In this document: positions 122 to 12,721 of the stretch, in pieces
Layout: each line of letters begins with the position of its first letter
How positions within the stretch are numbered: position 1 is the stretch's first letter
Assembly (NCBI GenBank): GCA_945875045.1
Contig: CAMCIX010000014.1
Coordinates: forward strand, 1 to 12,721
DNA: 12,721 nt
Reading direction: 5' to 3'
From: an uncultured Clostridia bacterium
GTDB lineage: Bacteria > Bacillota > Clostridia > Oscillospirales > Acutalibacteraceae
Translations under genes and position numbers: made by a program
Notes under the pieces: generated by a model
The model's database searches: none
What the model saw: the letters and a program-made list of their open reading frames with translations, nothing else
Told to the model about the DNA's origin: nothing

Positions 122-3100
122 ATGTTGAGCAAATTGTCAAAGAAAACCGCTGTTTTAATGATTATGGTCATTATCCTTGAACTTTTTGTTTGTGTTCCGG
201 TTTCTTCACAATCTGAAAATGTTGCCGATTCAGACAAGTATTCAGTTTCGGAAATAATTGTGAAATATAAGAACACTAATAGTAAATTATTAAAAAGCAC
301 TTTAAAAAATTCAAGCCAATACATAGTGAAAAAAACAATTGATTCTTCTAATATAGAAATAATTGATGTTTTATCGACTGATAAAATGAGTGCTGCAATC
401 GAGCTCTATGAAAGCGATCCAAATGTAGAATATGTAGTTCCAAATGACAAAATAAAGACATACAATTATTCGGAAGAGCCACTTTTTGAAAATCAATGGG
501 GACTTGGATACAACGGTGTCAACATTAATCAATACTATGAGTATGCAAACAGCGAAGATGTAATTGTCGGCGTGATGGATACAGGTATAGATATCAATCA
601 TCCCGATTTGGCAGAAAATATAATTCCTGGTGGATGGGATTTTGTCAATGACGATAGCACGGTATTTGATTCGCAGGAAAATCAGCATGGTACAAATGTT
701 ACAGGAATTATTACCGCTTCTATTAATAATATAGGAATTGCCGGAGTGGCTCCATCTGCTAAAATACTACCCTTAAAAGTTATCGAAGGTGAAACAGGAT
801 ACGTTTCAAATGTAATTGAAGCGATAGAATATGCAAAATCCAATGGTGTTAAAATCATAAACTGCAGTTGGGGAACTGATAATTTTAATCTTGCCTTAAA
901 GGACGCTATTAAAAAATCAGACATTCTTTTTGTATGTGCTACAGGAAATAGCGGAAACAATACAGAAACTTATCCTGCAGCTTTCGAATTGAATAACATT
1001 ATTTCTGTCGGGGCCTGTGATTTTTCGGGTAAAATTGCCTCATTCACGAATTCGCGTAATACGCTTGATCTTTATGCCCCAGGGGTAGATATATTAACTA
1101 CTGCTCCTGATAGCACATATACATCAGTCAGTGGAACTTCCTTTGCTGCAGCGTTCGTAACAGGTATTGCCGCCTTAACCATACAGACTGTTCCTTCCCT
1201 TACGGCAAGTGAAACGGCTGCCGTTTTATCGGAATGTGGTCGCGCTACAAACGAAAACGGAATCCGAATTGCGGATGTAGCCAAATCCATACGTCTTGCT
1301 TTGCCGTTTAGATTTACGAAAGACCTCGATAGCAGATTAACAAAAATAATGAATTCCGCAAATCTTTTGATCACACCGGATGTTGCGGATATTTTGACTA
1401 AACGCAATTACTATAATCAATTGACCGATGAAGAAAAAGACACAATAAACAGCTTCTTCGGAATGAGCAACAGTGATATGAACTTATGCTTTGATGCAGG
1501 GATTGATTTAACAGAATCAATAGCTGCTTTACTAACCGCGCAAAAAGCTTATATAACCGCAAGTCAAACCATTGCACTTTTAGAACACTATCAGGACAAC
1601 AGTGTATTTGACAGTGAGATTGATAATCTCTCAGAAATAATAAATAGAATTAAGATATCAGATTCCGAGAAAAATGAAATTATATCTTATATGCAAAACA
1701 ACCGTACTGTTGTAAAAATCGCAGGGGCATACATTTTTTCCAAAGTTACCGGATATCCGCTTTCCCAGGTTATCGGCACACCTGAGACTGTACTCTTGCC
1801 AAGTAATTCAGATTTAACAGGAGCAGAAAGAGAAACGCTTGCTCAAATCATTGAACAATATATGATTACCCCAACCGCGACAATCACTTATCTTGAAGAA
1901 AATAATTTGTCCGCATCTGATTTATCTGATAAACTTTATGAGTGGCAGAAAAACAACAATTTTTTTGTTTGTGGTAACAGCATATCCCCCTATGCTTTTC
2001 CCTCTTTAAGTTCATCCTTTTATGACAAGTATGAATTTAATACAAATGATTCTTGGTCGAATGGAAATGCAGTTATTGACAAAACTAACGGCATGTTAAG
2101 CTATACCTACCCGCTTTTATCGCTTGCAGGAAAAAACGGATTGGATTTAAACTTGGGATTGAGGTTTGATCCAGAAGTTGCCGATACAGTTAGCAACGTA
2201 AAATCCTCCGACTTACTTACTGTATCTTATACAGTAACCGAAAGCAGAACCTATTATTCTGCTGATTTATCGCAGAGACTTCCAGAGCTTGACTGCGAAT
2301 ATGTCTATATTAAAACAGATTGTTCAGAAGTTGAAAATTATATCGCACAGGACGGAATGTATTTTACCGATTTTATAGATACACAGGAGGTTCGCTATTA
2401 TAGAAACATCAGCGTTACTGCACAGTATGATATGTCCGATTATCAGGAAACAAATTCTTCAAATTATTATGACAGCCTTTATTCATTAGGTGTAGGTTGG
2501 ACATTAACATTTCCTTCTATTGAGAACATCGGGAATATAAAATATCTCCACCTCCCCGACGGCACAAAATACAAAATTAACACAGATAACACATTAGAAG
2601 GTTATCTGCTTTCCGACCTGTCTTTTCAGCCGGACAATTCTTTTCATACGGACAATTTGAGCTATTACTCTTTTATTGGCGGTCTGATTCTGCCGTCAGA
2701 TCCATTTGACGAGATTGTATCCGCATACTCATTATCCGAATTATCCGGCATAAAACATTTTTTTACCCAATCGGGTAGATACATAGGCTCGCGAGATTTG
2801 TATAATAATTCGATATTTGTCTATTATGATTCAGATGGTCGTATAGAAAGAATTGAAGATTCAACAAACAGAAAAATACAATTTAACTATCAGGAACTTG
2901 AAACAGTCAGAACGGTTGAAATTTCGGTTTCGAATAAAGACTCTAATGAAACCAAAAGCCTTTATACAATTACGCAGACAAAAAACGGTCAGCAAAAATT
3001 TGAACTGACCGGCATTGCAGACGGATCAAATCATAGTACTGTTTTTACCTATAATACCTATGATACGGATATAACACTCAATGAAACAATCGTTCCTGAT

Positions 3101-6100
3101 TCCGGTAAAAGTATATATATCAGTTCGGTGACCTCCCCAACCGGCGTAACAACAGAATTCACATATACACAGAAGCTAAAGAAATATGGCATCGCCGGAA
3201 CCGAGAAATACTTTGCTGTAACCGCGGCTGTAGATAAAATCGGAACAGCTGAGTATAACGCTGTTTCCTACCAAACGCCTAATCTCCGACTGTCACAATA
3301 TCCGTCCGGCACAGTATATCCCTATAACGATATCTCTGCAACCGATGTTTGCACATCAGAAAAGACAACAGATAATCTAAAGGAGAGCACCCTATACAAC
3401 AACAGCCGTATTCCATATAAAATACAAACATGGGACACATCCGAAAATATTTTGAAATCCGAACAGGAAATTGTGTCATTTGATTCTTATTATCAACCAA
3501 CTGAAATAAATGAAAAATCATATTCCGATGCAGGCATCTACTCCCTTGTGAAGACCGTATTACAGTGGGACTCCCTCGGCAATTGCCTTTCAAGAGAAGT
3601 GCGTTCAGGCAATCAGGACGGTTTAAGTGTCAATATTGATGAAAAAACCGTAACGGAATATTATTCTGATTCAAATATTCCATCTGTCAAAATTCAGTAC
3701 AGTTATAAAAAAGAGGGCGAATACTACGCTCAAAAAACCGTTAATTCAATCCTACCGTCATTAAGAAAGATAAGTAAGTCTGAAACCTACTCTTGTAACA
3801 TAAACGGCAACGAAACTACAAACGATAAGTTACTGTATTATTACGATTATCTTTATAATTCTTTCGGTCAATTGGTACAGAGCAAAACAACATATTCGAA
3901 GGATAATCAAGCATTGATGTCTTCAAATTCCGCAGTACGAATAAAGGATATTGTTTATGACGATAATTACGGAGTTTATCCTGTTCTAACAAAATCCTTC
4001 GGCAGATATAAGGATGTCGACGGAAACGACATTGACGGAATTAAAGACGCTGACGGTAATTTTCTTAAAGACGAAGACGGCAACCATAGTGCATCTCAAA
4101 CTGTATCAAGCTATAATATTCTCGGACAAATTCTTAGCTCACAGACATCAGACAATGTCAAAAAGGTTTATACTTATGATTCGGCAACAAACGAGCTTTC
4201 AAAAGTCGAATACTTTGACAGCAATACTAAACTCGGTGAAGAATCAACATTTACCGATTATGATAATAATACTGTTGTTACTGTCAGCTTTAACGGTGTT
4301 CATACTAAAACACAGTACAACAGCTTTGGAAACACCGTAAAAATCTACCGTCAAACACAAGCAAGTGTCGGCAGCGCAGTTCCCATATACGAGCTTCTTG
4401 AAAAAAACATTTATGACAGCTATCAAAGACTGATAGATACATATTCTCTGCGTACTTCCATATTAGAAGGCAGCGAAGATTTGACGAGTTCCGGCGTTCA
4501 ATATACAAAAACACATAACGAATACGATGAAATCGGAAGAATCATATCGATATCAACCACAGATGAAAATGGAGATACCGTTTCCTCCCCTGCTTACTAT
4601 GAATATGAGTCAGGCGTTCAATACGGTGAATCAAGCGAAAGCTATTCCACCATATCAAAAACTGTTTCCAGCGGAAACGCCGACAATGAAATATTTAAGA
4701 GCAAACAGTTTCTTGATTCTCATGGAAGAATAAGGTTGGAAGAATATTATAACGGAGCTACAAAAATATATACAAATCAATACACCTATTCCGATTTTGG
4801 TTACTTGTCCTCTGTGGATGGAGAAACCGTAAACTCACAAAGCAACGAAAACGAACCTACCGAAAACTCAACCACAGTGTCTCAAGGAGTCAATGTAAAT
4901 AATGACGGAACGTCAGCAGAAGTTACAACAACGCAAATCGCCGACGGATTAGGCCAAACGATACAATCCATAGACGGCAGCGGTCATATTACCTACTATC
5001 TTTACGATGACTTGGGAAGATTGATAAAAACAAAAACACCGGTTACAAAAATCGGTCAAACCGTTGTGTATAAGGAAGAAAAAACCTATTATGACACAAA
5101 CGGAAACGTATGCGAAGTAAAGGAACAAATAAACAATATTGGAGAAGCCGAAAAGTTCTCATCTAAAAAAATGAAGTATGATGCGTTCGGCAGAACGGTT
5201 CTTGTTTCTGTTAACGAAGATGACGAAGGCAGATGCAATCTTACGCAGTATTATTATGAAGGCAATAATACCTCTCCGTCAAGGGTATACTGCGGACAAG
5301 ACGTACCGCTAACAATACTCGGACTTGATAATATTGTCAATTCGGAGTATTATATAGACAAGACAAACAACCGTATTTTAGGAATTGAAAGCAATACTGA
5401 GCTAAATCGCTTTTTGGAAAAAATAGCTTCAGGCTACGGCACCGCAGCCGTATTAAGCAACGCGAATAGCGGCAATATTTCAACAGGCGATACCGTTCAA
5501 TTAACAATAAACGGTGAATGCAGGAATTTCAAGGCAGTTGTAACCGCAGATGTAACTTGTGACGGTTTAACTAATCTTTTAGATTTGGTACGTTTAAAAA
5601 AATATCTTTCGGGATTATCGCAATTTTCTGCTGAGCAACAATTAGCTGCAAGATTAGACAGCGACGAAACTGTGGGCGGTGCTGACCTCATTGTGATGAA
5701 AAAAATACTGCTCGGTAAGAAGGATGAATTACCGAATTTCTCATTGCCGGAATATACAGTTCAGAAATATCAATACGATTATCTTGGAAATTTAGTGCAA
5801 TATACCGACGCGCTCGGAAATTCGGATAGTTTTGAATATGATTATTATATTGGCAAACCAACCAAGAAGACATTGCGTAACGGAATAATCATTACTCTGG
5901 AATACGACGCGGCAGGAAATCTCGTCAGAACCGTTGGCAGCGAGGACGGAGCTTCACCGGTAGTTTATGAGTATGAATATGATCTACTCGGAAATGTTTT
6001 ATCGGCTTCAAATGCAGACGGGACGATAAAAGATACATATACCTACGATAATCTGAACCGCCTGATTGAAAGCGTCAGCACTCATAACGGTCTAATCACA

Positions 6101-8209
6101 CAAGTGGCATATTTATATACCGGAAAAGATTTAACCGCTATGACTACCTCGCGCTTTGAAATGTTGGGAAATGGCACAAAGGGTATGGGTACAACGGTTG
6201 CAAAGGAAGAATACACCTACAATGAAACCGGCGCTATTTCCGATAAAACAATTACCGCCTATTCCGGAAACTTTCTTAACGAAGCAGAGACATATAAAAT
6301 ATCATACGGTTACGGATATAATGCGGATAATAATTTAATTTACACGACAATATATTCAAACGGCGAGGACATTTCCTGCGGTCAATTTTCAACATACACT
6401 TATGATATGAGCGATCATATTACCAAGATCAGTACATCTATGGATCCCGGCAATACCTACAGAGTAACCATACGCGATGAGAGCTATCAGTACAGTTTGA
6501 GTGGAAATCTTATCGGGAAACAGACTTCTATTCTTCAAAATTTTGATGAAGAAATGGAGGATTATGTTACCAGAAATTACTTTGCAAATTATTCTTATAA
6601 TAACGCAGGAACTCTTATTGAGGAGGAATATGGTGAAACCGTAAACAACACGAACAGTCTCAGTTTGAAAAAGAGGTATAGTTACGATAGATTTGGGAAC
6701 AGAATATCAGAGGAAAAGACCAACTATGAAAATTCTCCGACCGTAACCAATATAACCTATACATACGATTTGGCAAACCGTATGCAAAGCAGAACAGAAA
6801 CGTCCTCAAATAATTCCTCACAGACCTGCTATACCTACGATTTATCCGGGAACTTGATTTCAACTCAAGAAACGCAGAATAACGGCGGAGTACAAAGCTC
6901 TGAAACCACTGTATATGCTTATGACACCATGAACCGCACCTCTTCAATCACTAAAAACGGTACGGTTACAAGCTTTGCGTATGATGAAAACAACCGTCGT
7001 ATCTCAAAGTCAAGCGGAACTCAATGCACATTATTTGTATGGAATAACGATCAGCTTCTTTTCGAAACGAATGCGGAAAATTACTCTCAAAACAATTATT
7101 ATATTTTCGGAATCGGCGGAGAAGCTGAAGGAATGCTTAAAAACGGCAAGCCTTATGCCAATACGCTCGATTTGACGGGCAACGTTGTAAATTCAACCAA
7201 TCTTACAACCCAGACCGAAACCGAGTCTAAGTACGATGCGTTCGGGAACATTACAGAAGGTCAAACCGTTTCTTCAATCGGATACAGCGGAGAATATTTG
7301 GACGCCGAAACAGGGCTTTATTACCTGACTGCCCGTTTTTATGATCCCGAAACAGGACGTTTTACGCAGGAGGACGATTGGCTGACAGAAGGTCCGAATC
7401 TGTATATTTACTGCCGAAATAATCCAGTTATGTATTCAGACCCGTCCGGGCATTGCAGTGCGATCGACCTTGTGTACTATAGACGCAGAGGTGATATGGC
7501 TAAACTTGAAAAGCTAAAGCGTATCATTGCAAACGGTGAATGTGATCCTAAATATCATTACGATCCAAGCAAGCCTGTTGATATTTTTATCAAACAAACT
7601 TATCCCATAACGGAAGATCAATATAATCAAATTAAAAACTCTATATTTAATAGAAAATTCAAAAATTTGTTTGGACTAAGCAAAAGTGGTTATAAAATGA
7701 ATCCGTCAACAACATCCGGTAGCATTCAATTATTTTCGAGCACTTATTATGATAAAGGCGGCTTTTTTAATTCTCCCGGTTGGCAAGGCATAACATATGT
7801 TTTTATCACTAATACTGTCGCTGTTTGGAAACTATATATAGAAACAATCAATTTTAGTGATACTCCGTTTATGAATACGCTCAGGCGTTTCTTTGAAAGT
7901 GATTTATATGAATATGCTTCTTTTGCTGTTGATGAATTAGTTCAAAGCTATACGGACATTCCTAATATCGGTAGCGGGTTTGGAGTATTATTCAATTGCA
8001 TAGATTCCATAGGAGAAGTGATCATAGATCCATTCAGTAGATATATTTCGGGTGCTATTTACGGAAAAGAGGATACAGAATCAGTATCGTTGCTATTTGC
8101 GGCATATGATTGGTATCACAAAAAATCTGTTTTCTCAAATAAATGGAAGACTACATATGTTAACTACGCATTTCCTTGGTCAAAAAACGTTGAATCATTT
8201 TTATTATAA
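122..8209 (+). CDS. Secreted subtilase-Rhs/YD-repeat polymorphic toxin with internal dockerin-like module
   Basis: This is a 2,695-residue predicted exported toxin. Seen in order: signal peptide (about 1-30); I9-like propeptide (about 41-112); S8 protease domain (about 123-355) with Asp153 in MDTGI, His189 in HGT, Asn276 in ATGNSG and Ser340 in SGTSFAA; a helical linker (about 360-640); an Rhs/YD shell starting near residue 651 with many YD..G-type repeats; a dockerin-like insert (1808-1871); the Rhs core (FYDPETGRF at 2406, DPSG at 2440-2443); and a C-terminal region (2444-2695). Known of the family: Rhs/WapA shells enclose a C-terminal toxin that is cleaved after the core and is neutralised by an adjacent immunity gene. 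Inferred: the subtilase may process this protein, a partner, or a target surface. The start at 122 is chosen by its RBS and signal peptide. Its C-terminus is far less GC-rich than the core, as expected for a swapped tip. The target of the toxin is unknown. Confidence 0.92.
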   Translation: MLSKLSKKTAVLMIMVIILELFVCVPVSSQSENVADSDKYSVSEIIVKYKNTNSKLLKSTLKNSSQYIVKKTIDSSNIEIIDVLSTDKMSAAIELYESDPNVEYVVPNDKIKTYNYSEEPLFENQWGLGYNGVNINQYYEYANSEDVIVGVMDTGIDINHPDLAENIIPGGWDFVNDDSTVFDSQENQHGTNVTGIITASINNIGIAGVAPSAKILPLKVIEGETGYVSNVIEAIEYAKSNGVKIINCSWGTDNFNLALKDAIKKSDILFVCATGNSGNNTETYPAAFELNNIISVGACDFSGKIASFTNSRNTLDLYAPGVDILTTAPDSTYTSVSGTSFAAAFVTGIAALTIQTVPSLTASETAAVLSECGRATNENGIRIADVAKSIRLALPFRFTKDLDSRLTKIMNSANLLITPDVADILTKRNYYNQLTDEEKDTINSFFGMSNSDMNLCFDAGIDLTESIAALLTAQKAYITASQTIALLEHYQDNSVFDSEIDNLSEIINRIKISDSEKNEIISYMQNNRTVVKIAGAYIFSKVTGYPLSQVIGTPETVLLPSNSDLTGAERETLAQIIEQYMITPTATITYLEENNLSASDLSDKLYEWQKNNNFFVCGNSISPYAFPSLSSSFYDKYEFNTNDSWSNGNAVIDKTNGMLSYTYPLLSLAGKNGLDLNLGLRFDPEVADTVSNVKSSDLLTVSYTVTESRTYYSADLSQRLPELDCEYVYIKTDCSEVENYIAQDGMYFTDFIDTQEVRYYRNISVTAQYDMSDYQETNSSNYYDSLYSLGVGWTLTFPSIENIGNIKYLHLPDGTKYKINTDNTLEGYLLSDLSFQPDNSFHTDNLSYYSFIGGLILPSDPFDEIVSAYSLSELSGIKHFFTQSGRYIGSRDLYNNSIFVYYDSDGRIERIEDSTNRKIQFNYQELETVRTVEISVSNKDSNETKSLYTITQTKNGQQKFELTGIADGSNHSTVFTYNTYDTDITLNETIVPDSGKSIYISSVTSPTGVTTEFTYTQKLKKYGIAGTEKYFAVTAAVDKIGTAEYNAVSYQTPNLRLSQYPSGTVYPYNDISATDVCTSEKTTDNLKESTLYNNSRIPYKIQTWDTSENILKSEQEIVSFDSYYQPTEINEKSYSDAGIYSLVKTVLQWDSLGNCLSREVRSGNQDGLSVNIDEKTVTEYYSDSNIPSVKIQYSYKKEGEYYAQKTVNSILPSLRKISKSETYSCNINGNETTNDKLLYYYDYLYNSFGQLVQSKTTYSKDNQALMSSNSAVRIKDIVYDDNYGVYPVLTKSFGRYKDVDGNDIDGIKDADGNFLKDEDGNHSASQTVSSYNILGQILSSQTSDNVKKVYTYDSATNELSKVEYFDSNTKLGEESTFTDYDNNTVVTVSFNGVHTKTQYNSFGNTVKIYRQTQASVGSAVPIYELLEKNIYDSYQRLIDTYSLRTSILEGSEDLTSSGVQYTKTHNEYDEIGRIISISTTDENGDTVSSPAYYEYESGVQYGESSESYSTISKTVSSGNADNEIFKSKQFLDSHGRIRLEEYYNGATKIYTNQYTYSDFGYLSSVDGETVNSQSNENEPTENSTTVSQGVNVNNDGTSAEVTTTQIADGLGQTIQSIDGSGHITYYLYDDLGRLIKTKTPVTKIGQTVVYKEEKTYYDTNGNVCEVKEQINNIGEAEKFSSKKMKYDAFGRTVLVSVNEDDEGRCNLTQYYYEGNNTSPSRVYCGQDVPLTILGLDNIVNSEYYIDKTNNRILGIESNTELNRFLEKIASGYGTAAVLSNANSGNISTGDTVQLTINGECRNFKAVVTADVTCDGLTNLLDLVRLKKYLSGLSQFSAEQQLAARLDSDETVGGADLIVMKKILLGKKDELPNFSLPEYTVQKYQYDYLGNLVQYTDALGNSDSFEYDYYIGKPTKKTLRNGIIITLEYDAAGNLVRTVGSEDGASPVVYEYEYDLLGNVLSASNADGTIKDTYTYDNLNRLIESVSTHNGLITQVAYLYTGKDLTAMTTSRFEMLGNGTKGMGTTVAKEEYTYNETGAISDKTITAYSGNFLNEAETYKISYGYGYNADNNLIYTTIYSNGEDISCGQFSTYTYDMSDHITKISTSMDPGNTYRVTIRDESYQYSLSGNLIGKQTSILQNFDEEMEDYVTRNYFANYSYNNAGTLIEEEYGETVNNTNSLSLKKRYSYDRFGNRISEEKTNYENSPTVTNITYTYDLANRMQSRTETSSNNSSQTCYTYDLSGNLISTQETQNNGGVQSSETTVYAYDTMNRTSSITKNGTVTSFAYDENNRRISKSSGTQCTLFVWNNDQLLFETNAENYSQNNYYIFGIGGEAEGMLKNGKPYANTLDLTGNVVNSTNLTTQTETESKYDAFGNITEGQTVSSIGYSGEYLDAETGLYYLTARFYDPETGRFTQEDDWLTEGPNLYIYCRNNPVMYSDPSGHCSAIDLVYYRRRGDMAKLEKLKRIIANGECDPKYHYDPSKPVDIFIKQTYPITEDQYNQIKNSIFNRKFKNLFGLSKSGYKMNPSTTSGSIQLFSSTYYDKGGFFNSPGWQGITYVFITNTVAVWKLYIETINFSDTPFMNTLRRFFESDLYEYASFAVDELVQSYTDIPNIGSGFGVLFNCIDSIGEVIIDPFSRYISGAIYGKEDTESVSLLFAAYDWYHKKSVFSNKWKTTYVNYAFPWSKNVESFLL
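488..1186 (+). other. Subtilisin-type (peptidase S8) protease domain with complete catalytic set
   Basis: Residues about 123-355 of the large protein. The Asp, His and Ser motifs of subtilases all occur in the right order and spacing: Asp153 (codon at 578), His189, Ser340, plus the oxyanion-hole Asn276. The preceding residues 41-112 resemble the I9/fervidolysin-type propeptide, ending in a typical SDPNVEYVVPN strand. Nothing essential is missing, so an active secreted serine protease is expected. Rhs proteins usually self-cleave with an aspartyl protease activity near DPxGxxx; a complete N-terminal subtilase is an additional, less usual module. Confidence 0.93.
4013..4087 (+). other. Asp/Gly-rich, possibly calcium-binding insert in the Rhs shell
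   Basis: Residues about 1298-1322 contain four DxDG-like units: DVDGND, DIDG, DADGN and DEDGN. Such D-x-D-G-N runs resemble EF-hand or thrombospondin-type-3 calcium loops and stand out from the surrounding YD repeats. Binding is inferred from the spacing of acidic residues only; no full EF-hand helix pair is visible. Confidence 0.4.
5543..5734 (+). other. Dockerin-like (type I) module embedded in the Rhs shell
   Basis: Residues about 1808-1871. The first half, DVTCDGLTNLLDLVRLKKYL, has acidic or polar residues at calcium-loop positions 1, 3, 5, 9 and 12 (D1810, T1812, D1814, N1818, D1821), followed by the LxxLKKYL helix typical of dockerins. The second half (AARLDSDETVGGADLIVMKK) matches the usual ARLDVNGDGxVNGAD pattern but its loop is two residues short. 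A short beta-rich stretch containing STGDTVQLTING precedes it, as in many clostridial beta-domain/dockerin pairs. YD repeats resume immediately after. No cohesin gene is in the window, so a cellulosome role is not supported; surface docking or a structural role is possible. Confidence 0.8.
7203..7568 (+). repeat. Rhs core recombination arm, copy 1 (in the main gene)
   Basis: Direct repeat of 9038-9403, offset 1,835 bp. By hand alignment there are 6 mismatches in 366 bp (at 7211, 7256, 7503, 7516, 7561, 7565), with an unbroken identical run from 7257 to 7502 (246 bp). It encodes the last part of the shell, the Rhs core through DPSG, and 38 further residues ending at KYHYD. Downstream of it the two copies are unrelated, so the end of the repeat marks the boundary of the exchangeable toxin tip. 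Confidence 0.97.
7565..8209 (+). other. Variable C-terminal toxin region of the main Rhs protein (unrecognised)
   Basis: Residues 2482-2695 (214 aa), starting where homology to the orphan copy ends. I do not recognise the family and see no nuclease, deaminase, ADP-ribosyltransferase or peptidase signature. It opens with a segment containing ITEDQYNQIKNSI, a helix type common at the start of Rhs tips. A glycine-rich stretch of moderate hydrophobicity follows around GSGFGVLFNCIDSIGEVIIDPF. The toxin role rests on position after the core and on the adjacent candidate immunity gene. A membrane-active toxin is conceivable because the neighbour is a membrane protein, but that is inference. Confidence 0.6.
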
Positions 8210-8218
8210 AAAACTATT

Positions 8219-8223
8219 AGGAG
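8219..8223 (+). promoter_or_regulatory. Ribosome binding site fixing the start of the membrane protein gene
   Basis: AGGAG lies 8 bases before the ATG at 8232 and 9 bases after the stop of the Rhs gene. The same frame is open back to 8052, but that extension overlaps the Rhs coding sequence by over 150 bases and has no membrane-protein character, so 8232 is the start. Confidence 0.85.
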
Positions 8224-8231
8224 TATTTTTT

Positions 8232-9020
8232 ATGTTGAAAAATATTAAAAAAGAAGCAAAAAGAATTATATTTTCATATTATTTTAAGCTTATATTGCCT
8301 AGTCTTATATATATGTTTTCTAATGCAGCCTTATATTTAATTATTAATCAAGTTATGGCTTTTAATGAATGGTATTTATATTCTGAGGTTATAAAAATTC
8401 TAATAATTCTTGCTATGCTAATACTCTGTTTTATAATTAATCCGATTTCTTTAAATTTGTTATTTAAAATTACCGTATTATTAGTAAATGAGGAAAGGTC
8501 AATACTGAATGATATTATTTATTATTTAAAGTCGTTGACAACTGTAAAGAGAATAATCATTATAAACTGTATACCTAGGTCGCTTCAACTACTAAGCCTA
8601 TTGTTTTCAAGCAATAGATTCTATATGGGTACAAATAATTCATTGGCGCTTATCGTTGTAGCAATAATTGTAATTATTGCAGACTATAAACTATTTATAT
8701 CAAATTATTGTCTTGTGCTTTCAAACTGTGCAGCAAAGACAGCTATAACGAATTCTATTGGTTATATGAAAAAGAATTTAGGTAATTACATATATTATAA
8801 ACTTTCTTTTATTGTATGGTACTTGTTTGCTGCAACGTTAAGAATTATATTTGAAATACTTATTACTGGAGATGTGAACGCTATTCTACATAACTATAAT
8901 TTGCCGTTTTTAGATGCATTTAAGTATTTTGAATATGGGGTTGGATTATTTCTGTGTCCTTATTTATATGTTACGCAAACTCTTTTCTGCCGTCATATTA
9001 TTGATAATACAAAGCAATAA
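8232..9020 (+). CDS. DUF975-like multi-pass membrane protein, candidate immunity protein
   Basis: A 262-residue integral membrane protein with about six hydrophobic segments (about 18-40, 53-76, 107-126, 138-160, 190-213, 232-252). The end resembles DUF975 proteins: a helix like AITNSIGYMKKNLGNYIYYK, then LSFIVWYLF, then YGVGLFLCPYLYVTQTLF, matching the family pattern of 'S...MKG.....L.LSFI.W.L ... GIG....PY...A...FY'. It starts 22 bases after the Rhs stop, with its own strong RBS, so it is probably co-transcribed. Its place, between a toxin tip and an orphan tip, is where Rhs immunity genes sit. The gene is very AT-rich (14 G/C in 60 bases at 8281-8340), unlike the Rhs core (29 of 60 at 7321-7380), suggesting acquisition with the toxin tip. 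The immunity role is inferred; an unrelated membrane cargo gene is the alternative. Confidence 0.65.
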   Translation: MLKNIKKEAKRIIFSYYFKLILPSLIYMFSNAALYLIINQVMAFNEWYLYSEVIKILIILAMLILCFIINPISLNLLFKITVLLVNEERSILNDIIYYLKSLTTVKRIIIINCIPRSLQLLSLLFSSNRFYMGTNNSLALIVVAIIVIIADYKLFISNYCLVLSNCAAKTAITNSIGYMKKNLGNYIYYKLSFIVWYLFAATLRIIFEILITGDVNAILHNYNLPFLDAFKYFEYGVGLFLCPYLYVTQTLFCRHIIDNTKQ

Positions 9021-9037
9021 TAGCAAAACTGAATATT

Positions 9038-9403
9038 TTACAACCTAGACCGAAACCGAGTCTAAGTACGATGCGTTCGGGAACATTACAAAAGGTCAAA
9101 CCGTTTCTTCAATCGGATACAGCGGAGAATATTTGGACGCCGAAACAGGGCTTTATTACCTGACTGCCCGTTTTTATGATCCCGAAACAGGACGTTTTAC
9201 GCAGGAGGACGATTGGCTGACAGAAGGTCCGAATCTGTATATTTACTGCCGAAATAATCCAGTTATGTATTCAGACCCGTCCGGGCATTGCAGTGCGATC
9301 GACCTTGTGTACTATAGACGCAGAGGTGATATGGCTACACTTGAAAAGCTTAAGCGTATCATTGCAAACGGTGAATGTGATCCTAAATATCATTATGATT
9401 CAA
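9038..9403 (+). repeat. Rhs core recombination arm, copy 2 (orphan tip)
   Basis: Near-exact copy of 7203-7568, beginning 18 bases after the stop of the membrane protein gene. The six differences include C to T at 9046, turning a Gln codon (CAG) into TAG in the shared frame, and G to A at 9091 (Glu to Lys). All mismatches lie near the two ends of the repeat, with 246 identical bases between them, as expected after a recent duplication or gene conversion. Confidence 0.97.
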
Positions 9404-9938
9404 ATGAAATTAACAATGTGTATTCCGTTAATAATTACACTTGGGCTATATATGTTACAGATTATTCTTCGGACGGTTTACCTGTAGTTGGACATGCAAG
9501 GTTATATATTGAAGACAATTCTGGAAAATGGTGGTTAACGGAATTTACAGGAACAAAACCATCAAATGCAAAAGTTTACTGTTACAAAGTTGAGATTGAA
9601 GATATTTTAACGATTTAAATAAAGGGTTGTTTAAACTTAATTTTGGGCTTATTAATATAAATTTAACAGGTACAGAATTCTGTGTTTTAAAAGGGGATTT
9701 TTCTAAGAGCTTAACCATGGCCAAGAAATATAAAAAGGAAGATAATTATCCTGAATACAAATTCTTTACAAATAATTGTTTAACATATGTTCAAACTATT
9801 TTGAGTTATGCAAAAAGTGATGAATATTCTGTTCAATTCTTATTTGATCACCCTTTAACAATTATTCCGTCTGAATTCAACAAACAAATTATTGCCGTAC
9901 GATTTTTAGAGCAATTTGAGTATTCCGCGAAAAACTGA
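9049..9938 (+). pseudogene. Orphan Rhs toxin tip with papain-like (permuted NlpC/P60-type) motifs, frameshifted and truncated
   Basis: After an in-frame TAG at 9046-9048 the Rhs frame runs through the core and KYHYD, then into a different tip. That tip contains VVGHARLYIED (His codon 9493-9495) and, further on, FFTNNCLTYVQTIL (Cys codon 9777-9779). A His-first, Cys-later order with GHxxxY and NNC is seen in permuted papain-like peptidases (LRAT/NlpC-P60 type), and similar tips occur in Firmicute Rhs proteins. The two motifs lie in different frames: frame 1 stops at 9616-9618, while frame 0 is open to 9938. Adding one A in the run at about 9605-9610 would join them as EDILNDLNKGLF, so a one-base deletion (or a sequencing error) is likely. 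There is no proper start or RBS. The TGA at 9936-9938 belongs to the IS21 end, so the natural C-terminus is lost. Possibly a silent donor for tip switching. Confidence 0.72.
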
Positions 9939-10012
9939 ACACCTTGACCGCTCAAGTTGAACAGTCTGACCGCTAAAATTGAACAGTACGGCCGCAGAGG
10001 TTGAACACCCTG
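9936..10012 (+). repeat. Left terminal array of IS21 element (four 22-bp units)
   Basis: TGAACA boxes begin at 9936, 9958, 9980 and 10002, an exact 22-bp period. The unit approximates TGAACAGTNNGACCGC plus an A-rich spacer. The third unit has GGCCGC in place of GACCGC, and the fourth keeps only the first part. The array mirrors the right end and is the expected IstA binding region; IS21 elements are known for multiple terminal repeats. Confidence 0.9.
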
Positions 10013-10037
10013 CAATTAAGGTAACAGTAACACCCGC

Positions 10038-10066
10038 TTCAATGCACAGCAGACGGTCGGTATAAT
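10038..10066 (+). promoter_or_regulatory. Probable istA promoter
   Basis: A perfect -10 box TATAAT at 10061-10066 has a weak -35 candidate TTCAAT at 10038-10043, 17 bases upstream. It lies 52 bases before the istA start, which has a strong RBS (TAGGAGGT at 10103-10110). An imperfect inverted repeat (CACCCGCTTC at 10031-10040 against GAAAGCGGTG at 10082-10091) brackets the -10 region and could damp expression. Confidence 0.55.
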
Positions 10067-10117
10067 GGATATATGCACTGCGAAAGCGGTGTAAATATTC
10101 ATTAGGAGGTCAAGAAT

Positions 10118-11653
10118 ATGACCAATTATCGAGAGATACTGAGGCTGGACAGCCTCGGTCTCAACAAAACCCAAATAGCCGACGCCTGCGACTGTTCAAG
10201 AACTACAGTAATAGCGGTGCTTCGGCGAGCTGAAGAGGTAGGACTTTGCTACCCTTTGCCTGAAAACCTTTCAGACAAAGAACTGTCTATGAAGCTGCAT
10301 CTGTCTGCTCAGAGTAAGCCTATGTACAAAATGCCGGACTACGAATATGTACATAAAGAACTGCAAAAGAGCGGTGTTACACTGAAGCTCTTATGGCTTG
10401 AATACTGTGAGAAATGCCGTGAAAACGGAGAATTGCCGTATCATTCTACGCAGTTTAACAAGTATTACAGTGACTATGCCATTAAAACAAATGCAACGAT
10501 GCATTTAAACCACAAGCCCGGTGAAATTATGCAGGTAGATTGGGCGGGCGATACAGCCTCTGTTATCGACACCGTAACGGGCGAAATAATACCGGCATAT
10601 CTTTTTGTGGCTTCTTTGCCGTATAGCGGATATGCCTATGTAGAAGCTTTTTTCTCTATGAATCAGGAATGCTGGATAGCAGCCCATGTAAATGCCTTTA
10701 AATACTTTGGCGGTGTTACCCGTATTCTTCAGTGCGACAATTTAAAAACAGGAGTTATCTCTCACGGCAGAACCGAGGTTACACTTAATAAGGCGTACAG
10801 TGAAATGGCAGAGCATTACGGTACTGCAATTCTGCCCTGTAGAGTAAGGTCGCCAAAGGATAAGGCTATGGTAGAAGGCACTGTAGGTGTAATTACAAAC
10901 TTTGTCCTTGGCGCTTTGAGAAACAGAAGGTTTTTATCCTTGCCGGAGTTAAATGAAGCAATATGGGAACGCTTAGGAATTCTTAATAATGCTCCGTTTC
11001 AAAAGCGTGAGGGTAGCCGTGCTACCGCTTTTGAGGATGAAAAAGCATTTTTGTTACCCTTACCGCCAAGACCCTTTGAATTATCCGAATGGAAAATTGC
11101 AACGGTAGCACCAAATTACCATATTAGTATAGAAAAACAAAACTACTCTGTACCTTATGAATATATTAAGCAAAAGGTGGATGTACGAATTACAAAATCC
11201 ACTATCGAGGTTTTCTTCGGTGGTAACCGTATCGCTTCCCATCCAAGACTGTACGGCAGATTAAATCAGTACAGCACCGTAGAAGCACATATGCCGCCTA
11301 ATCATCAGCAATACATTCAATGGAACGGTGAGCGTTTTGTTAAGTGGGCAGCTAAGATAGGAATAAATACCAAAACAGCAGTAAGTGCCATACTCAGCGG
11401 ATACAAGATAGAACAGCAGGGTTACAAGGCTTGTATGGGCATTTTAAAGCTTGCGGACAAGTATTCTCCCGAAAGATTGGAAAATGCCTGTAAAAAGGCG
11501 TTAACCTTTACTCCAAGACCCTCCCTTAAAAACATACAGGCAATTCTTTCTTCAGGTCAAGATAAGGAACAACCCCCGGAAGAAGAAAAGCCATCATCAT
11601 CGCAATACGGGTTTACCCGTGGAGTAGAGTATTATGCAGGGAGGAAAAACTAA
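10118..11653 (+). CDS. istA: IS21-family transposase IstA
   Basis: This 511-residue DDE transposase cuts and joins the IS ends together with IstB. Residues 1-42 form an N-terminal helix-turn-helix (LGLNKTQIADACDCSRTTVI), which should bind the terminal repeats. The catalytic core has Asp141 in MQVDWAGD, Asp207 in LQCDNLKTG and Glu253 in PKDKAMVEG, matching the IS21 DDE pattern. A C-terminal Mu-type beta domain follows (for example KQNYSVPYEYI), as in other IstA proteins. The RBS TAGGAGGT is 7 bases from the ATG. The stop overlaps the istB start by one base. No break or missing catalytic residue is seen, so the element should be functional apart from the tip outside the window. Confidence 0.96.
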   Translation: MTNYREILRLDSLGLNKTQIADACDCSRTTVIAVLRRAEEVGLCYPLPENLSDKELSMKLHLSAQSKPMYKMPDYEYVHKELQKSGVTLKLLWLEYCEKCRENGELPYHSTQFNKYYSDYAIKTNATMHLNHKPGEIMQVDWAGDTASVIDTVTGEIIPAYLFVASLPYSGYAYVEAFFSMNQECWIAAHVNAFKYFGGVTRILQCDNLKTGVISHGRTEVTLNKAYSEMAEHYGTAILPCRVRSPKDKAMVEGTVGVITNFVLGALRNRRFLSLPELNEAIWERLGILNNAPFQKREGSRATAFEDEKAFLLPLPPRPFELSEWKIATVAPNYHISIEKQNYSVPYEYIKQKVDVRITKSTIEVFFGGNRIASHPRLYGRLNQYSTVEAHMPPNHQQYIQWNGERFVKWAAKIGINTKTAVSAILSGYKIEQQGYKACMGILKLADKYSPERLENACKKALTFTPRPSLKNIQAILSSGQDKEQPPEEEKPSSSQYGFTRGVEYYAGRKN

Positions 11654-12399
11654 TGTTAACAGAAAATACAGTTACTAAACTACAGGAAATGAAGCTTACA
11701 GCTATGGCAAGAGCCTTTAAGGAGCAGCTTACCGACCCTAATATTAACGGATTAGCTTTTGAAGATAGGTTCGGTCTTTTGGTAGACCAAGAATGGACAT
11801 CCCGTAAAAACAATCATCTTAAAAGATTAATAAAGCAGGCAAAATTTTCGGAAACGGGTGCTTGTGTTGAGGATATTGAATACCACTCGGACCGAAATTT
11901 AGAGTCTGCTCAAATAGCAAGGCTTGCTTCCTGCAACTACATTGCAGAAAGGCACAACATACTGTTACTCGGTGCTACCGGCAGCGGTAAAACCTATCTC
12001 GCCTGTGCGTTAGGTATGGCAGCAGTAAGGAATTTTTTGTCGGTCAGATATGTTAGACTTCCCGAGCTTTTAACCGAGCTTGCGATTGCACGCAGCAGCG
12101 GTAATTACAGAAAGGTGATCGCTCAATACAAAAAGCCGGCATTACTAATTTTAGACGAATGGTTACTATATCCCCTTAAAGAAACCGAAGCCAGAGATTT
12201 ACTTGAAATTGCAGAGGCGAGATACAAAAAGGCATCCACCATTTTTTGCTCTCAATTCGATGTGCCGGGATGGCCTGAAAAGTTAGGTGACCCAATAATA
12301 GCAGATGCAATATGTGACCGCATTGTACACGATTCATATTCGGTAGTTATTGAATGCAAGGAATCTATGCGCAAACGCAAAGGCGTTACGGAGATATAA
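11653..12399 (+). CDS. istB: IS21-family helper ATPase IstB
   Basis: This 248-residue AAA+ ATPase selects target DNA and stimulates IstA. The Walker A motif GATGSGKT is at residues 107-114, Walker B LLILDEW at 164-170, and a probable arginine finger lies in ICDRIVHDS near residue 223. The N-terminal helical domain (about 1-70) is the normal IstA-contact region of the family. Length is usual. The start ATG overlaps the istA stop (TAATG at 11651-11655), with a GGGAGG ribosome site inside the end of istA, so the two are translationally coupled. It is intact. Confidence 0.96.
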   Translation: MLTENTVTKLQEMKLTAMARAFKEQLTDPNINGLAFEDRFGLLVDQEWTSRKNNHLKRLIKQAKFSETGACVEDIEYHSDRNLESAQIARLASCNYIAERHNILLLGATGSGKTYLACALGMAAVRNFLSVRYVRLPELLTELAIARSSGNYRKVIAQYKKPALLILDEWLLYPLKETEARDLLEIAEARYKKASTIFCSQFDVPGWPEKLGDPIIADAICDRIVHDSYSVVIECKESMRKRKGVTEI

Positions 12400-12401
12400 T
12401 A

Positions 12402-12430
12402 GCACCTACGGTGCATCGGACGCTGTCCGA
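12402..12430 (+). other. Two tandem short hairpins directly after istB
   Basis: GCACC-TAC-GGTGC (12402-12414) and TCGGAC-GCT-GTCCGA (12416-12430) are perfect stems of 5 and 6 bp with three-base loops, separated by one base and starting 2 bases after the istB stop. No U-run follows, so they are not classical terminators. They may protect the 3' end of the istAB mRNA; function is not shown. Confidence 0.5.
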
Positions 12431-12459
12431 ACCTGAGGTTTAACGCATTAAAGGTTTTC

Positions 12460-12531
12460 CGGGAAGAGTGAAGAAGCGTGATTACAATGCAAAAAAAGAG
12501 TGACCCCGATCATACGGCATCACTCTTCCCG
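12460..12531 (+). other. Large inverted repeat with an alternative inner stem
   Basis: CGGGAAGAGTGA at 12460-12471 is the perfect reverse complement of TCACTCTTCCCG at 12520-12531 (12 bp). The right arm can instead pair with AAGAGTGA at 12496-12503, so two mutually exclusive hairpins exist. This lies in the roughly 230-base stretch between istB and the right repeat array, in which I see no gene. Confidence 0.6.
12491..12527 (-). terminator. Rho-independent terminator on the minus strand, facing into the IS
   Basis: Read on the minus strand, AAGAGTGA ... TCACTCTT (stem arms 12527-12520 and 12503-12496) with an inner CCG/CGG pairing is followed by a run of T (complement of the A-run at 12491-12497). 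This is the form of an intrinsic terminator. It would stop transcripts entering from the right flank before they run antisense through istB and istA, a known protective strategy of IS elements. It would not end the istAB mRNA. Confidence 0.65.
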
Positions 12532-12633
12532 CTAAACCCCGCTTACAGCGCTCGTGTCGCTCCTCAGCGTTGCACTATCCTCTGCTGCGGTTAAAAGCAT
12601 ATTTATGATACCATTTTACTTTATTGCCGTCAA

Positions 12634-12721
12634 TGTACAATCTATGCGGTCGCACTGTTCAATTCAGGCGGTTTGACTGTTCAATTTGGGCGGTCGCACT
12701 GTTCAATTCAAAACGGTCAGG
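12634..12721 (-). repeat. Right terminal array of IS21 element (22-bp units, last unit cut by window end)
   Basis: TGTTCA boxes (minus-strand TGAACA) start at 12656, 12678 and 12700, with a degenerate TGTACA at 12634, all exactly 22 bp apart. A terminal box is predicted at 12722, just beyond the window. Minus-strand units read TGAACAGTGCGACCGC and similar, the same as on the left. The right array has one more recognisable unit than the left. Confidence 0.88.

Follow-up and report, generated by a model that had tools for sequence, protein, structure and literature searches.

Orphan rhs modules are known from Salmonella and Yersinia (PMC3967940). In S. Typhimurium LT2, a core fragment of 522 bp with 95% identity to the main gene is located downstream of it and carries another tip; this orphan is functional and accompanied by an immunity gene of its own, and it was demonstrated to recombine with the main gene (PMC3967940). 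A duplication of the locus was proposed as the first step toward loading of the orphan, because a plain deletion loses the immunity gene (PMC3967940). Orphan cdiA-CT/cdiI and rhs modules are similarly described as tip fragments behind a main gene with variable upstream homology, mainly on contact-dependent growth inhibition shells of Gram-negative bacteria (PMC3150448). For secreted multi-domain proteins with swappable C-terminal tips, the combination of an S8 peptidase with RHS is given for Ntox32, and papain-like tips are described (PMC3482391). The Rhs orphan literature we found dealt mostly with Gram-negatives, and our searches of the open-licence literature on subtilase/S8 plus Rhs gave nothing on point except PMC3482391. 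Here we analyzed a 12,721-bp stretch of DNA (the window; positions 1 to 12,721 of contig CAMCIX010000014.1, assembly GCA_945875045.1) from an uncultured bacterium of the Acutalibacteraceae (Clostridia). It carries a subtilase-Rhs gene followed by a membrane protein gene and a second copy of the Rhs core end with a different tip. We consider it likely that this is an Rhs-type polymorphic-toxin locus with a single orphan tip module, which is now a decaying remnant. The very large secreted protein probably carries an interchangeable toxin-like tip.

Like rhs-main and its orphan in LT2, the locus comprises a main rhs gene, an immunity gene (here a candidate) and a core fragment with another tip, which, judged from its sequence, has no start or export signal of its own (PMC3967940). 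As far as its anatomy was tested, the module fits the orphan rhs-CT kind except for its broken tip frame. In contrast to LT2, the orphan of the window is not intact, a secreted subtilase-Rhs protein serves as the shell, and the repeat reaches 36 residues beyond the core motif (PMC3967940). Several of the cdiA-CT/cdiI and rhs orphans are likewise disrupted by insertion sequences (IS), on shells that are mainly of a different type (PMC3150448). The window shares the secreted architecture with swappable tips with the RHS/S8 systems, but unlike them has two tips that match no Pfam or NCBIfam family above cut-off (PMC3482391). In the open-licence literature on Rhs and polymorphic toxins, we found no description of this shell type or of a boundary at the linker end. 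The window contains the following features:

122 to 8209, forward strand: main subtilase-Rhs gene, 2,695 amino acids from the ATG at 122 (open reading frame (ORF), Pfam, TIGR03696).
7200 to 7568, forward strand: main arm, end of the Rhs core plus a 36-residue linker, 369 bp, 98.1% identical to 9035 to 9403.
7568 to 8209, forward strand: tip A, 213 amino acids, with relatives in proteins P0001, P0002 and P0003 at 42-52% identity.
8232 to 9020, forward strand: membrane protein, 262 amino acids, immunity candidate by position, six transmembrane (TM)-like segments by simple hydropathy.
9035 to 9403, forward strand: orphan arm, copy of the core end and linker, with an in-frame TAG at 9046 to 9048 (arm comparison).
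9403 to 9618, forward strand: orphan tip C, first piece, frame ending in a stop at 9618 (ORF list).
9627 to 9920, forward strand: second piece of orphan tip C, read in a different frame, 3' end cut by IS21 (ORFs, weak Pfam matches, IS terminus).
9917 to 12721, forward strand: IS21-family element with IstA (10118 to 11653) and IstB (11653 to 12399) (NCBIfam, terminal repeats).

Comparison of the window with itself reproduced in full the direct repeat reported by the first-pass annotation of this DNA. The stretches 7203-7568 and 9038-9403 were identical in 360 of 366 bases at an offset of 1,835, with six mismatches (7211, 7256, 7503, 7516, 7561, 7565) and a longest perfect run of 246 bases (7257-7502). 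BLASTN extended the pair to 7200-7568 and 9035-9403 (369 bases, seven mismatches). No second repeat of comparable size was present within the window, and among the 285 contigs of the assembly only two copies of the arm were found, both on this contig. TIGR03696 matched either copy with an equal score of 92.3 bits, the model ending at 7453 and 9288, respectively. Past the DPSGH motif the repeat continues for about 38 codons up to KYHYD; this part holds the linker (7454-7561), which is of the type C[NS]A..L[VI]YYR[RK]..GD and ends in KYHY. As had been stated before, the two copies diverge completely after the shared core end: no DNA similarity was detected downstream of 7568 and 9403, and no protein similarity between tip A and the pieces of tip C (best E 2.7).

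The orphan frame opens at 9049, behind the TAG within the arm, and the piece from 9133 onward passes TIGR03696 with 68.6 bits (cut-off 32.5). The first-pass annotation had drawn the cassette tip as one frame up to 9938, which had to be revised, since the frame stops at 9618, the remainder follows in a different frame from 9627, and its end belongs to IS21. The final codons and the stop (9936-9938) of this second frame are the left end of the element, whose terminus, TGA[AG]TATTCCGC followed by a TGAACACC stretch, recurs at ends on contigs C111 and C79; from this common terminus, we infer that the left end lies at about 9917-9921. As the IS terminus supplies the last codons of the orphan frame, IS21 was inserted within the orphan tip gene. 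The assignment to the IS21 family was confirmed by matches of the two adjacent genes to NF033546 (245.4 bits, cut-off 160) and NF038214 (227.5 bits, cut-off 200); the right end is probably located just past the contig end. No immunity gene was seen behind the orphan tip on this contig, where IS21 follows directly and the sequence stops at 12721.

Neither piece of tip C matched a Pfam or NCBIfam family above cut-off, the first piece being scanned within 9133-9615. The earlier designation as papain-like rests on sub-threshold Pfam matches of the second piece to TseH (E 0.013, 15.9 bits versus a cut-off of 27) and Lnb_N (E 0.02, 14.9 versus 22.2). Searches against PDB sequences gave weak matches to phage fibre and Src proteins for the first piece (best E 0.014) and to HSM3 for the second (best E 0.0028), neither of which was taken as homology. 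In 398 genomes of the family, the second piece was found in its own genome alone (1/398); the first piece was compared with Pfam, NCBIfam, PDB, 63 loci and eight proteins, the search of other genomes being made with the second piece.

The mismatches between the arms fall on codon positions 4/1/2, one of them being nonsense. Only two of seven changes are at third positions, compared to 258/388 when six further loci are pooled (Fisher test, one-sided, p 0.049; the pool includes one of the three pairs of genome G062 and excludes G011, 58/97). The orphan looks free of constraint, as the arm codon positions (weakly), the in-frame stop, the frame break and the IS agree. At one differing site the orphan arm has T and the main arm K, and T was present in all five relatives compared; the orphan therefore did not arise merely by recent copying of the main arm as it is now. 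A recent conversion had been proposed on the grounds that the middle of the repeat is poor in mismatches, which proved a weak argument: in simulations with six randomly placed mismatches, a perfect run of at least 246 bases occurred with a probability of 0.008, which rose to 0.045 after removal of the two mismatches at the 3' boundary, in a test chosen after the fact.

That tips vary at this boundary in relatives, as the first-pass annotation had assumed, was borne out by a search with a 601-residue region of the shell (residues 400-1000), which yielded six proteins among the best 7,985 candidates scored. Protein P0002 was obtained by the tip search alone, and P0007 (shell 27-46% identical by segment, linker 29%) and P0008 (partial, lacking the core end) were left out of the pairwise comparison. 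The main protein and P0005 are 99% identical in the shell, 100% in the final 150 residues before the linker and 75% in the linker, and have unrelated tips (z -0.6). P0001, P0003 and P0006 are mutually similar in shell (78-84%) and linker (92-97%), yet P0006 bears a tip of the P0005 type; the tips of P0005 and P0006 are 55% identical, their shells 54%. P0003 and P0006 (shell 83%, linker 92%) diverge directly behind YHF, which corresponds to the KYHYD boundary and agrees with the expectation of different tips after this motif. The tip of P0003 is 52% identical to that of P0002 (shells 52%) and 39% to that of P0001 (shells 84%). Like shells with unlike tips, as in polymorphic toxins, were thus observed for the main protein versus P0005 and for P0003 versus P0006, and this incongruence of shell and tip shows that tips are exchanged between shells in this clade. 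The tip-region search, which covered proteins of 0.55-1.75 times the whole-protein length, by its design favored tip A, and taken by itself would have pointed to a stable tip, an impression that the search with the shell put right. P0005 represents a cluster of 68 members at 90% identity, which may include window-like alleles, so that the cluster size says nothing on frequency.

The linker follows the core in all six proteins of the shell clade compared, irrespective of the tip, and is not present in P0007 or in G119, a genome of another genus of the family. Tentatively, and with clear reservations, the tips could swap in two zones, either at DPSGH, as in the window versus P0005, or at the linker end YH[YF], as in P0003 versus P0006 and in the arms of the window. 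In the same tentative reading, the linker would be left on the shell by certain swaps and carried along with the tip by others.

The same arrangement was found in other genomes. Among 70 genomes of the genus, 18 contained an Rhs core at E ≤ 1e-6 (30 matches in total; the control of this search matched in 2/14 named genomes). Same-strand cores within 5 kb that form tandem arms with different tips were present in six of the 70, the own genome included (G000, G060, G069, G046, G038, G062), a number which is a lower bound because several single cores lie near contig ends. In the five others, the arms comprise 173-1,461 bases with 83-95% identity, followed by protein parts that are unlike one another. 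The shared stretch ends within the core in G060, G046 and G038, just before DPxG in G069 and a few residues beyond in G062, and none of these arms spans a long linker, unlike that of the window. A related shell was found in G119, whose subtilase-Rhs shell is 36% identical over the 601-residue query and whose arm comprises 224 bp (94.6%); its main tip matches Peptidase_C39_2 (E 4.9e-9) and its open orphan tip the effector family Peptidase_M91 (E 1.6e-10), with genes having TM-like or lipoprotein-like starts behind each tip. In G128, which has a related shell, a second arm was not found within the stretch retrieved, and the gene of G111 runs off its contig. In all seven loci with a second tip, namely the six of the genus and G119, a frame encoding one or more TM-like segments is located between the main tip and the second arm (by hydropathy, without a control). 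A wider contig scan gave 17 loci, none at the identity of this shell, seven of which have, within the stretch retrieved, a second core-end copy at 76-96% or more (L022, L024, L026, L029, L030, L032, L034; tips not compared). L032 lies in the complete chromosome of Rossellomorea marisflavi, so the arrangement is not confined to metagenome-assembled genomes (MAGs) or to Gram-negatives.

Some of these loci showed further details. In L032, positions 665-6585 hold three tandem core-end stretches of 96-99.6% identity, and in L071 (G062:C1, reverse complement of 1062-5210) three consecutive core fragments with three unlike tips lie near a contig end. Behind the orphan tip of L040 (G069:C1, 12939-14494), there are two small genes that are paralogues of each other (71% identical) and encode hydrophobic starts; they may belong to an array of immunity genes. 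L075 (G038:C17, 4758-5300) encodes a relative of the P0005 tip (25%, E 1e-5) near another Rhs core fragment.

The main protein consists of an S8 subtilase with prodomain, a dockerin-like insert, RHS repeats, the Rhs core, the linker and tip A. Pfam matches were obtained for Peptidase_S8 (E 6e-53), RHS_repeat (E 2e-14) and Fervidolysin_NPro-like (E 6.5e-8), and TIGR03696 was passed with 84.2 bits (cut-off 32.5). The match to Dockerin_1 (22.0 bits) was slightly below the cut-off of 22.9; this insert, encoded at 5546-5713 in the Rhs part, is present in this shell, P0005 and P0002, with no match in P0001, P0003 and P0006. Relatives of tip A were seen on three other subtilase-Rhs shells, P0001, P0002 and P0003. 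Tip A gave no Pfam or NCBIfam family above cut-off, no match in PDB sequences and none among 72,556 plasmid records, and in the 398 family genomes it occurred in its own genome alone (1/398). The AlphaFold model of tip A, built from four sequences, had a mean pLDDT (predicted local distance difference test) of 59.5, the next of five models 45.9, and none of 74 Foldseek matches reached E ≤ 0.001; in view of the low pLDDT and the lack of matches, no fold is claimed.

The membrane protein gene is located between tip A and the orphan arm, with a gap of 14 bases between its stop and the arm, and the first-pass description of an orphan tip behind the main Rhs gene with a membrane gene between agreed with its six TM-like segments. 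No Pfam family was matched, and the single database relative was P0004 (98%). From its position, this protein is probably the immunity protein of tip A.

These observations suggest the following model. The secreted subtilase-Rhs shell would present tip A at its C-terminus, where it would be toxic to neighbouring cells, and the membrane protein encoded behind it would protect against tip A. Tip C, carried by the 369-base downstream copy of core end and linker, may be an earlier or alternative tip and looks like debris of past swapping. The transfer of tips between shells would most likely occur by homologous recombination within the core end and the linker. The arms are still a possible substrate for recombination; a crossover between them would delete 1,835 bases, load the broken tip and lose the immunity candidate. 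The deletion size predicted by the first-pass annotation thus stands. That the crossover would equip the shell with a functional papain-like tip is not supported, owing to the in-frame stop of the orphan arm, the frame break and the IS21 cut.

A switch that is still in use, by which arm-to-arm recombination in the living population would excise tip A together with the membrane gene and bring a functional tip C onto the shell, would be favored by arms of 366-369 bases at 98% identity and by the 522-bp pair at 95% that recombines in Salmonella and loads the orphan tip (PMC3967940). However, the frame break and IS21 interrupt tip C, no immunity gene is visible behind it, and with the orphan decayed an arm-to-arm deletion would yield no intact new tip. 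The assembly also lacks a swapped copy, containing two arm copies, one tip A and one second orphan piece, although a rare junction or circle might escape. We therefore regard an active switch as improbable. Close to an even chance, though somewhat short of it, is a stricter version of our explanation that does not exclude it, according to which the arrival of a tip A module displaced an older tip C to its downstream position, and the arms persist as leftovers not kept for recombination. The decay marks (TAG, frame break, IS21 cut) and the T of the orphan arm shared with all five relatives against K in the main arm are in line with this, as is the proposal that incoming modules displace older effectors in Vibrio type VI secretion clusters (PMC5361080). 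On the other hand, orphan frames stay open through arms of 83-95% identity in six other loci, suggesting that orphans can be kept.

The two arms might also be two alleles of one locus joined in tandem by the assembly or by a mixture of strains. The MAG consists of 285 contigs, the contig start resembles untrimmed adapter, and the perfect run of 246 bases exceeds commonly used k-mers. Against this, arm-specific mismatches link the membrane gene to the orphan arm, and similar tandem arms (84-95%) lie well within contigs of G060, G069, G046 and G119, a location that makes an error of this kind unlikely; we consider an artefact very improbable. Finally, the tips could belong to a surface protein and function as adhesion or enzyme domains instead of toxins, given that no toxin family was matched above cut-off by tip A or C and no fold by tip A. 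The tips of G119 (Peptidase_C39_2 and the effector protein Peptidase_M91), with genes having TM-like or lipoprotein-like starts behind each, and the occurrence of like shells with unlike tips, a hallmark of polymorphic toxins (PMC3482391), make non-toxic tips quite improbable.

Several points weigh against an Rhs-type toxin locus with a decayed orphan as the best explanation. Tip A is conserved about as much as the shell in P0001, P0002 and P0003, which could fit a stable non-toxin domain. The toxicity of the tips and the immunity are putative, and neither tip of the window matches a family above cut-off. Apart from the 98% copy P0004, no homologue of the membrane protein, and hence no candidate partner for the other proteins with tip A, turned up in the database search. 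The core end in other genomes of the genus never exceeded 56% identity nor extended past residue 91 of 122; with no close relative of the shell seen in the genus, the locus may derive from transfer or mis-binning. The 601-residue shell region was found in 4/398 genomes of the family at E ≤ 1e-15 and in 2/394 of the order at E ≤ 1e-25, the own genome being counted in both and the order sample overlapping that of the family, and a scan of viral contigs with P0005 gave no relative. In G011, an upstream stretch of the core is repeated without a new tip behind it, and this locus was not counted as tandem (L048, G011:C31; repeated core stretches 7309-8432 and 9939-11026, the second ending tipless), and 10 of the 17 loci of the wider scan have no second core-end copy in the fetched stretch. 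The frame break in tip C might also be mimicked by a sequencing or assembly error.

Both ends of the contig deserve mention. Positions 1-46 encode a peptide of the VYKRQ type that opens the long ORF, and a peptide of this kind (VGSEMCIRDR) likewise stands at the start of contig C79. The 46 bases presumably represent an untrimmed Nextera read-2 adapter, which they resemble. The last 55 bases (12667-12721) match the end of C111 in reverse complement, a situation that resembles a k-mer branch in an assembly graph. Behind the end of the element on C111, the sequence does not repeat the bases before the IS here, i.e., no matching target duplication was found. From the 55-base overlap, C111 might be the continuation of this contig, although the flanking bases show no target duplication.

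The main/orphan arrangement of Rhs genes, proven to recombine in Salmonella, is here found on a secreted subtilase-Rhs shell of a probable clostridium. Since its orphan is broken, the window tells more of past exchange than of an active switch. If the tips indeed swapped in two zones, linker-containing orphan arms like the one described here would be a DNA bank for exchange, and the linker, if the core is cut at the usual place, would form the N-terminus of any released tip and hence a common handling segment. The window and P0005 form a natural allele pair that differs almost only in linker and tip. Together with the orphan loci of the genus, this pair provides concrete places for testing tip swapping in metagenome reads, and L032 of R. 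marisflavi a cultured place for studying it.

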